Below, in pieces: positions 38,826 through 41,595 of a stretch of 64,000 nt of DNA. The position numbers and the translations under genes were made by a program. Under the pieces are notes generated by a model. It saw only the letters and a program-made list of their open reading frames with translations. It ran no database searches and was not told the DNA's origin. This DNA comes from an uncultured Candidatus Saccharibacteria bacterium. Its GTDB lineage: Bacteria > Patescibacteriota > Saccharimonadia > Saccharimonadales > Saccharimonadaceae. The stretch spans positions 125,753-189,752 of the forward strand of contig CAMVNH010000001.1 in assembly GCA_947168825.1 (NCBI GenBank). Reading direction: 5' to 3'. Each line of letters begins with the position of its first letter. Position 1 is the stretch's first letter.

Positions 38826-38935
38826 AAGAAAACCAACCGACTGAAAGGGCGCCTTTAATTGACGGACTTTCCAGGTGGGAAACCTGCTGGATAGGCGGAT
38901 GGTCGGGAAGCTCCGTAGGGAGTTTCCCGTTTTTT
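38826..38935 (+). ncRNA. Unidentified small RNA gene with promoter and terminator
   Basis: About 110 nt between the consensus promoter (38791-38819) and a strong terminator: 11-bp stem CGGGAAGCTCC/GGAGTTTCCCG (38904-38929, one G-U) with GTAG loop and TTTTTT. Inside are hairpins AAAGG/CCTTT (38844-38856) and CAGGT/ACCTG (38872-38886), and CCGACT (38837-38842), which can pair with GGTCGG (38901-38906) and would then compete with the terminator. No ORF with SD. Not 4.5S RNA (conserved apical motif absent), not 6S or tmRNA by size. Function unknown. Confidence 0.7.
38904..38935 (+). terminator. Rho-independent terminator of the small RNA
   Basis: 11-bp stem with GTAG loop and six T. Its T-run meets the stop of the convergent DUF3800 gene (38934). 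Confidence 0.9.
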
Positions 38936-39356
38936 ATGATGAAAAATTAAGTTTGTCGTAGATTTGTGCTAGGTACTGTTGTCTTTTTGTGGTGTAGTAT
39001 TCCATAGTTGCACCGGAAATCATATCTGCAAGCTGAATTAATGAATTGGATTTTGAATCAATGTATTTTAAAGTGTGAACGGAATTTTTTGGTAAGTTTT
39101 GTCTAAAGTACGCGCGGATTTTCTTTTGGTAAGATTTCCCGCTTTTGCCGTCGATATAGATGTTGGCATAAGATATTGGAAGATTGAGTAGAGATTTTAG
39201 AATTTCTTGGGTTGCTAGTTCTAAATCGTTTTGCGAGCTAAAAGAAATTGCGGAAATTATAAAATATCTACTGGCGCCTTTGGTTAGGGATATACCTGGG
39301 TCACCAGAATCGTCTATGAAGATAAATTGGCGAGGAGACTTAGGTGTCTTAGCCAT
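38934..39356 (-). CDS. DUF3800 family protein, short version
   Basis: 140 aa. FIFIDDSGDPG at 11-21 is the DUF3800 N-terminal motif (usually F-DESGD), and KYIDSKSNSLIQLADMISGA at about 100-119 is the C-terminal one with the conserved Asp. Family members usually exceed 200 aa; here the middle helical part is missing, so this may be an internally deleted or a compact form. The RNase H-like fold suggests a nuclease; such genes occur in defence islands and phages. No SD seen at ATG 39356. Confidence 0.8.
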   Translation of the reverse strand: MAKTPKSPRQFIFIDDSGDPGISLTKGASRYFIISAISFSSQNDLELATQEILKSLLNLPISYANIYIDGKSGKSYQKKIRAYFRQNLPKNSVHTLKYIDSKSNSLIQLADMISGATMEYYTTKRQQYLAQIYDKLNFSS

Positions 39357-39424
39357 ATAAGTTAGTGTAGCATGGCGAATTTTTCCAAGTCAAATGGTTA
39401 TGTTATTTTTTTTGAAAAAAGATC

Positions 39425-39453
39425 TTGCACACGTATTTTGCTCGTGCTAAAAT
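39425..39453 (+). promoter_or_regulatory. Promoter giving a leaderless transcript of the surface protein
   Basis: -35 TTGCAC (39425-39430), 17-bp spacer, -10 TAAAAT (39448-39453). The A of ATG 39460 is 7 nt past the -10 box, where transcription should start, so the mRNA would be leaderless. Confidence 0.7.
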
Positions 39454-39508
39454 AAAAATATGATTTCCACAAGAGGTAATAGGCTTTTACACAGATCTAG
39501 GTTTAGTT

Positions 39509-41515
39509 TTGTTGCTGGGGGGGGGGGGACAACTTACTAGTTCTTTTAGCATCTTAGCTACCTTCATTTTCATTTTCATTTTCTTCCCGTCTTTCCTACT
39601 TGCTTTCTTGATTGGATCTAACTTTGCCCCTGTTTCTAATAGCTCTGCGACAGGAGATATTTCCGTGGTAAATAATACTACCGGTTACTATGCTAGTATC
39701 ACCTCTTCTGGGGACATCGAATTAGATATTTCCTCTACTCCAGACGGAGACTATAAAACCGGAGTAGATACTCTCAGCATAGACACCAACACTAAAAACG
39801 GTTACAAACTCTATATCAGTACCATAGACCATAGCAGTGATTCCCCGGCTCTCCCTTCTGGTACTCCAGCTAACGGGCTTATCAACAGTGCCACTGGATC
39901 TTATATCTCTCCCTCCAGCGGCACTGTTAATGCGCCAGTTAGACTAGCCACTAACACTTGGGGATACGCTGCGAGTAGATCCACCAACACTGGTACTAAA
40001 GCCACTTACACTAACACTTCTGCCGCTCCTACGGAAGCCGCTGGTGGACAAGCTGTCTGGAAGGCTGTTCCAGTCTATGGCAGTGAAGACATCTTCTATA
40101 CCAACACCGATCCTACTAATGCTAGCTCTGGTTCCACTACCCCAGGGGACAGTAACGACACTAACGCTATAAACGTCTACTATGCCGCTAGCGCCAACAC
40201 AGGTCTTTCTTCCGGCATCTATACTAATACCGTAGTCTATACCGCTATTGTAGACGGAGGCTCAGACGAAACTGGACTAGCTGAAGCTTCTATCTTCCCG
40301 GTTTCGCAGGATGGGCTTGCGGCGGGGACAGAGGTGACGATTGCGACTGGGCTTTATCCGGGTTTTAGCGTAGATAATCTAGGTACGATTACGGTGACGA
40401 TTGGGGGACAGAGTTGTACAAATGTGACGCCGGTTTTGTCGGAGATTGGGAGTTTGAATATTACCTGTGATACCCCTGCGCAGACGAATTATGGAAGTTA
40501 TACGGTGATGGTGACAGTGGCAAAGTATGGTAAGACGTATACCTTAACTAATGCGTATGAATACGTCGATCCAACTCCACCTGCTTTCTTCACCATTACC
40601 AAGATGCAACAAATGACCCATGATATTTGTACCGATGCTAAGCTCCCTACCCCAGCAGCAAATGAAACCACTGCCCTTACCGCCTCTACTTGGGCTTCAG
40701 GTTCCCGTACCGGCATCCCAACCACCACCCTCCTAGACGACCGTGCTGGACAGAAATCCTATACTGTAAAGAAGCTCGCAGACGGTAAATGCTGGATGAC
40801 AGAGAACCTAGCCCTTCCTGCTGGAGCAGTCCTTAGTGCTTCAGATTCAGATCTTGATGGCGTAAAAGTATCTAGCTATACTATTCCAGCTAGTACTACT
40901 CCGTTTACCAATGATAATGATTTAGAGCAGATGTACGACCCAGTAGCTGGTGGTGGCACCACTACTACAAGTGTCGAAAAATATAGCTACAAAGTAGGCA
41001 ACTATTATTCTTGGCGTACCGCTACTGCTGGTACTGGTAGAGGCGCAGGATCAAACCCGGGAACCGGAGTACTAACTGATGTTTTCGGTACAGATATGAC
41101 AGTACGAAACAACAACACCCTCGTCTCCATCTGCCCTAAAGGTTGGCGTCTTCCAACTGGGGGTAACGATTCTACTGCCGGTACCACTGGCATCACTACT
41201 CCAGGCTCCACTACCAATCTCGTAAACGGAGACTTTACCGCTCTTTATCGGGCTTATGGTGGTACCGGTACATCAGGTTCAGACACCACTATGTATGCCC
41301 AGATGACTAACCCAAATTACGGCCCTAACTTCGCCCTCTCCGGCTACGTCTACACCAACGGTCAGGGCTACGTTAGTCGCATCAGCTTCTTCTGGTCTAG
41401 TACGGTGTACAGCTACAACATCGCGTACTACATGAGCCTGAATACGTCGTACGTCGACTCGCAGAACTTCAGCAGCAAGTACTACGGCCCAACGATTAGG
41501 TGCGTCAGTCGTTAG
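39509..41515 (+). CDS. Phase-variable, DGR-type secreted surface protein with FISUMP domain
   Basis: 668 aa when read from TTG 39509, but the natural start is probably ATG 39460, whose frame is joined only if the G tract (39517-39528) has 11 or 14 G; with 12 G the ATG frame stops at TAG 39538. Joined, it gives a basic head (MISTRGNRLLHRSRF) and a long hydrophobic signal segment (FIFIFIFFPSFLLAFLIG). Residues 40-260 are Thr/Ser-rich beta; 264-350 an IPT/TIG-like domain with deviant codon use; 370-668 a FISUMP-type C-lectin domain (VKKLADGKCWMTENLAL, ICPKGWRLPTGG, ending FFWSSTVYSYNIAYYMSLN...RCVSR). A surface adhesin or receptor for its host or prey cell is likely. No SD; see the tract and variable-region entries. 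Confidence 0.8.
   Translation: MLLGGGGQLTSSFSILATFIFIFIFFPSFLLAFLIGSNFAPVSNSSATGDISVVNNTTGYYASITSSGDIELDISSTPDGDYKTGVDTLSIDTNTKNGYKLYISTIDHSSDSPALPSGTPANGLINSATGSYISPSSGTVNAPVRLATNTWGYAASRSTNTGTKATYTNTSAAPTEAAGGQAVWKAVPVYGSEDIFYTNTDPTNASSGSTTPGDSNDTNAINVYYAASANTGLSSGIYTNTVVYTAIVDGGSDETGLAEASIFPVSQDGLAAGTEVTIATGLYPGFSVDNLGTITVTIGGQSCTNVTPVLSEIGSLNITCDTPAQTNYGSYTVMVTVAKYGKTYTLTNAYEYVDPTPPAFFTITKMQQMTHDICTDAKLPTPAANETTALTASTWASGSRTGIPTTTLLDDRAGQKSYTVKKLADGKCWMTENLALPAGAVLSASDSDLDGVKVSSYTIPASTTPFTNDNDLEQMYDPVAGGGTTTTSVEKYSYKVGNYYSWRTATAGTGRGAGSNPGTGVLTDVFGTDMTVRNNNTLVSICPKGWRLPTGGNDSTAGTTGITTPGSTTNLVNGDFTALYRAYGGTGTSGSDTTMYAQMTNPNYGPNFALSGYVYTNGQGYVSRISFFWSSTVYSYNIAYYMSLNTSYVDSQNFSSKYYGPTIRCVSR
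39517..39528 (+). repeat. 12-nt poly-G tract, phase-variation switch
   Basis: Twelve consecutive G between the leaderless ATG (39460) and the ORF of the surface protein. N mod 3 = 2 joins the frames; N = 12 gives a stop at 39538, and N mod 3 = 1 a stop at TAG about 24 nt after the tract. Slipped-strand change by one base would switch the protein on or off. A homopolymer error in the assembly is the main alternative. Confidence 0.75.
41390..41515 (+). other. Candidate DGR variable region (VR)
   Basis: The last about 42 codons differ from the rest of the gene: TAC, AGC, AAC, ATC, TTC and ACG codons dominate (for example TAC AGC TAC AAC ATC GCG). Runs of NNC codons are what adenine mutagenesis of AAC template codons gives. 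They code for the ligand-facing part of a C-lectin fold ending GPTIRCVSR, with an invariant GC-rich 3' end fitting an IMH site. Template repeat and RT are not in this window. Confidence 0.6.
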
Positions 41516-41595
41516 TGGCTAATATTCCGCAATGTTTTAACTGATTTGTCAAGTTATTGAATTGAAGAAGAGGAATAAACGCAAGAGTATTGTGC

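Follow-up and report, generated by a model that had tools for sequence, protein, structure and literature searches.

A gene in a gut Candidatus Saccharibacteria genome ends in a real variable region written by a diversity-generating retroelement (DGR) with remote machinery, and we consider it highly probable that this segment is the variable region (VR) of a DGR target gene served by machinery elsewhere in the chromosome. Stacked on the same gene is a candidate poly-G switch, which we regard as the more surprising part of the finding. The DNA analyzed, hereafter the window, is a 64,000-nucleotide stretch (C1:125753-189752) of a Ca. Saccharibacteria MAG from the gut, a 578-kb genome in 8 contigs that is 87% complete. 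For a neighboring RmuC protein, the nearest named relatives are encoded in Ca. Saccharibacteria MAGs, mostly from ruminant gut.

The target gene occupies 39460..41515 on the plus strand, counted from an ATG at 39460 that is probably its start; a TTG at 39509 is no more than the earliest start codon within the long open frame (39464-41515). A -10-like hexamer, TAAAAT (39448..39453, plus strand), stands 6 bp 5' of the ATG, with the same leader in a paralogue on contig C8, and this placement would suit a leaderless-type start. Positions 40784..41509 encode a Fib_succ_major/FISUMP domain, matched by the profiles PF09603 (36.2 bits, cut-off 33.9) and TIGR02145 (53.9, cut-off 41.65). The predicted model of this domain resembles the DGR-diversified protein TvpA (2y3c, Z 7.9) and an Lcl domain (Z 8.1). 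A preliminary description of the window had proposed a C-type-lectin fold here; the FISUMP matches and these comparisons, in which all structure evidence comes from predicted models, weakly to moderately favor it. In relatives (L081, L089, and L096), the gene order cysS-DHH-rmuC-recR-ybaB-dnaB is found without the target, DHH being separated from rmuC by about 190 bp, which indicates that the gene is an insertion in the window genome. The stretch inserted between the DHH and rmuC genes, 38934-41515, holds the target and a 140-aa ORF. At L106, an Asn-rich frame (NNSSFNNGGSNGNYWSSSSNSSTNAYNLNFNSSNVNSANNNNRRNG) on the minus strand, 2623-2842 bases 5' of rmuC, resembles another DGR template.

The 3' end of the target gene shifts toward C-ending codons, as the preliminary description had noticed. 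In the segment it delimited (41390-41515), 21/41 codons end in C, compared to 189/627 before it (P=0.005), and the shift is stronger with borders corrected to 41339-41488 (31/49 compared to 176/610, P=1.8e-6). The peptide quoted for this segment, including its ending GPTIRCVSR, was correct. In kind, the segment is a DGR variable region as proposed, but the adenine-type changes span 41345-41490, such that ~45 bp at the 5' end of the variable part fall outside the proposed segment.

The plus-strand stretch 41330..41519 is homologous to a template, TR1 (C1:2183-2372, minus strand), and differs from it at 28/190 positions, 20 of which are template adenines (P=1.5e-6). These 20 changes lie in the variable region proper (41345..41490, plus strand) and mostly convert AAC to NNC codons. 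In a 103-bp core (41385..41487, plus strand), all 13 differences fall at TR1 adenines and the 64 non-adenine sites are unchanged. Differences confined to template adenines, as had been anticipated, are thus found throughout the core, but not in the stretch as a whole, where 8/28 lie elsewhere. These non-adenine differences are at template positions 11, 28, 39, 54, and within 158-164, with positions 55-157 clean, an adenine-only run longer than expected from chance placement (P=0.035). A mismatch block at 41488..41494 on the plus strand has five differences from TR1, four of them non-adenine, that change GQS to GPT. It is followed by a 25-bp tail (41495..41519, plus strand) identical to both TR1 and a second target on contig C4, which may act as an IMH-like homing-initiation end.

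The window and C4 target genes are 14% diverged just 5' of the VR, and given this divergence, the probability of so clean a core is 6e-5. We conclude that a TR1-type template supplied the core, and did so later than the separation of the paralogues. With eight non-adenine differences, the full 190 bp cannot recently have come from TR1 alone. The ends of the VR may be older, may lie beyond the last conversion tract, or may derive from a variant template; the last writing of this VR was probably partial, or old, or from a close TR1 variant. Within the genome, strong DNA matches to the VR were to DGR parts only, and a search of IMG/VR with the exact VR tail and RT1 peptides gave no match.

The preliminary description had predicted that other parts of the genome would contain a DGR-type reverse transcriptase (RT) and an adenine-rich near-repeat, and had set against its own reading a genome devoid of either one. 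Both are present, so the trans arrangement it proposed holds. Two DGR-type RTs are encoded, at C1:997-2124 (RT1) and C2:93399-94517, both scoring above the RVT_1 cut-off; an Avd-like gene and an AAC-rich template accompany each. The RT sequence contains IGNLSSQ, which fits the DGR motif [IVL]GxxxSQ, and YVDD is also present. The best solved match to RT1 is chain A of the PDB series 8ub7-8ube (E 3.7e-27), far above group II intron RT; these entries are titled as DGR ribonucleoprotein RT. Phage relatives of RT1 comprise 90 records at <60% identity, with 34-39% among the eight matches listed. TR1 (also L009:2183-2372) lies directly 3' of RT1 on the opposite strand, and TR2 (C2:94569-94752; L010:8570-8753) is likewise directly 3' of its RT and opposite to it. 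About 165 kb separates the window VR from RT1, its Avd-like gene, and TR1, which are grouped at an end of contig C1. The templates were also compared with other targets: TR1 and the C4 target differ at 23 sites, all adenines (P=3.5e-14), as do TR2 and a C2 target at 21/21 (P=1.5e-12), and for TR2 and a C3 target 28/39 differences are at adenines. Differences between TR1 and TR2 show no adenine bias. We looked for a third template in the assembled genome and found none.

The Avd-like genes (L009:162-1019 and L010:6553-7413) lie 5' of each RT and have about 285 codons. In the predicted model (mean pLDDT 90), the C-terminal half forms four helices, and residues 164-280 align with Avd (4dwl) at Z 14.1 and rmsd 1.9 over 109 residues; 8ub8 gives Z ~14, and a member of the S23 family (2gsc) matches the C-terminal half at Z 16.7. 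A sequence profile of the protein found nothing convincing in the PDB. By fold comparison alone, then, the accessory protein would have the Avd fold, a predicted helical bundle. Its additional N-terminal half, about 160 residues long, is conserved at the majority of RT loci. The first bases of contig C1 (L009:1-110) hold the end of a different gene, whose product finishes in GLTLRPVY, and then a TR1-type 3' region and a hairpin; this remnant is probably a truncated cis target of the first DGR. Contigs C3 and C4 likewise break at targets.

In the mechanism we propose, TR1 would be transcribed and its RNA copied by RT1 with errors at adenines, and the cDNA would home to the target gene and replace its 3' end, altering about 15 residues on the face of the C-type-lectin-like FISUMP domain, where the protein may bind a ligand. 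Two observations count against this reading, the eight non-adenine differences from TR1 and the lack of a strong hairpin within 300 bp 3' of the window VR. GC-rich 8-bp hairpins are found 3' of the VR at the C4 target, the C2 target, and the C1-end remnant, and are absent 3' of the templates; in phage BPP-1, too, a hairpin follows the VR and is missing after the template (PMC3240598). The DGR hairpin is important, yet not a strict requirement (PMC12875486). We considered whether the loss of a hairpin would prove a VR dead and rejected this, as many VRs of the genus have no clear one.

It is possible, if doubtful, that the VR is a retired one: TR1 once wrote it, the 3' homing region and the hairpin have since disappeared, and it is now drifting. 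The homology to TR1 stops at 41519, whereas the C4 target runs ~35 bp further, into its hairpin. The window VR has eight non-adenine changes, and Treponema denticola offers a precedent in a leftover remote VR with 19/21 changes at adenines (PMC4891356). The 25-bp tail of the window VR is intact, however, and because only 6/16 VRs examined at RT loci across the genus have a clear hairpin, its lack is weak evidence for retirement. We think it unlikely that a third DGR or template outside the assembly, with A at some TR1-G sites and with the GGCCCAACGATT block, writes the VR. The incompleteness of the genome, the contigs that end at DGR targets, the up to 4 RT matches in relatives, and the clustering of the non-adenine differences, as a different template would yield, all fit such a source. 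The assembled genome has no further copy of the ATTAGGTGCGTCAG tail, however, and the core matches TR1 perfectly at every non-adenine site; among the matching genomes of the closest relatives, we found no template with the GGCCCAACGATT block.

Two other origins have little to recommend them. The VR could have been copied from another DGR target by ordinary recombination in place of retrohoming, given that paralogous targets have long DNA stretches in common, but the 27 sites that distinguish the window VR from the C4 target show no enrichment for C4 adenines, and the window VR retains the TR1 base at several sites changed in C4, making this origin very improbable. Hardly credible is a FISUMP paralogue of the ordinary sort, unconnected to any DGR, in which the codons are simply biased: many FISUMP paralogues that have no template similarity do end in WSST...RCV, but TR1, an RT-adjacent template that matches at the DNA level with adenine-directed differences, already refutes this idea. 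We favor a VR served by remote DGR machinery, at the high probability given above.

Just after the ATG of the target gene is a tract of 12 G (39517..39528, plus strand), a candidate slipped-strand ON/OFF switch that is OFF as assembled. To read into the long open frame, the ATG at 39460 requires 11 or 14 G; the homopolymer length assembled for a MAG can be wrong by one. Slipped-strand mispairing at this tract would turn expression of the entire protein on or off. A C3 paralogue has 9 G and is ON (L012:4120-4128), and the C8 paralogue has 10 G and is OFF (L064:3011-3020); the genome contains three runs of at least 9 G, all just after the ATG of FISUMP genes. In relatives, 13/80 sampled tracts lie at the 5' end of a same-strand FISUMP frame, a biased rate as the sample was drawn mostly from genomes known to have FISUMP genes. 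L307 was left out of the 13, its FISUMP frame ending 5' of the tract. For nine of the 13, an upstream ATG is gated by tract length. By coordinates, two of these genes are cis DGR targets with a TR/VR pair, G019:C16 (13 G, ON) and G052:C24 (9 G, OFF), placing the same tract type on DGR targets of two other species, and tract lengths differ among paralogues and species. In some relatives (L318, L321, and L294), the tract has no upstream in-frame ATG, and at L318 and L320 it follows TTGACA and may occupy a promoter spacer. To our knowledge, a phase-variable DGR target is undescribed; none of the matches listed in a literature search combined DGRs and phase variation in one paper, which leaves absence unproven.

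Relatives of RT1 were found in 51/90 genomes of the genus and 3/60 outside it, and FISUMP matches in 50/54 genus genomes, with a maximum of 36 in one, compared to 0/36 others. Template orientation was assessed at RT loci with a TR/VR pair having at least 85% adenine-directed differences. All 18 testable loci of the genus have their template on the strand opposite to the RT and 3' of it, whereas in 4/4 controls from related phage DGRs it is on the RT strand. The opposite-strand templates include L009:2183-2372, L010:8570-8753, and those of 17 loci among L024-L052. We lean toward the view that in FISUMP surface proteins of gut Saccharibacteria, poly-G slippage selects the expressed paralogues and DGRs, acting in cis or trans, rewrite the binding face of some, with templates transcribed against the RT gene.

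The system resembles the DGR of Bordetella phage BPP-1 (mtd-avd-TR-brt) in its RT, its predicted Avd fold, its adenine-directed TR/VR differences, its C-type-lectin-type target, and, for part of the present set, a hairpin on the VR side. It differs in the template, which in BPP-1 is flanked by avd and brt on a common strand and here is 3' of the RT on the opposite one; in the ~160 extra N-terminal residues of the Avd-like protein; and in the 165-kb distance to the target. Remote and leftover DGR targets are already known from the Tvp proteins of T. denticola, with which the window gene has in common a remote target, the TvpA fold as modeled, and a partly mismatched, leftover-type VR (PMC4891356); here the domain is FISUMP with a poly-G switch, and two DGRs occur in one small genome. 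Trans action is known from Thiohalocapsa PB-PSB1, where VRs are served by an RT and template at another locus; a perfect match at all non-adenine sites, the criterion used there, is seen for the C4 target and not for the window VR (PMC10907252). FISUMP is also known as a DGR target domain from human-microbiome FISUMP/DUF1566 targets, which have the same Fib_succ_major domain and differ from the present case in host and in the 5' poly-G tract (PMC4159848), and DGRs are known in CPR (PMC8144416). Poly-G contingency genes, such as those of Neisseria, likewise have a length-dependent frame near the start of a surface-protein gene, but here a DGR variable region is in the same gene.

An OFF-state tract in an assembly may make DGR targets appear broken or escape gene annotation, and contig breaks at these repeats hide remote VRs. 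Saccharibacteria live attached to other bacteria and need host-recognizing proteins. Two mutation devices appear to act on one putative surface protein, a DGR at the 3' end and poly-G at the 5' end of its gene. That a small genome maintains two DGRs, remote targets, and a switch of expression in one gene family suggests strong pressure to vary a binding surface, whether for host switching or for phage escape.
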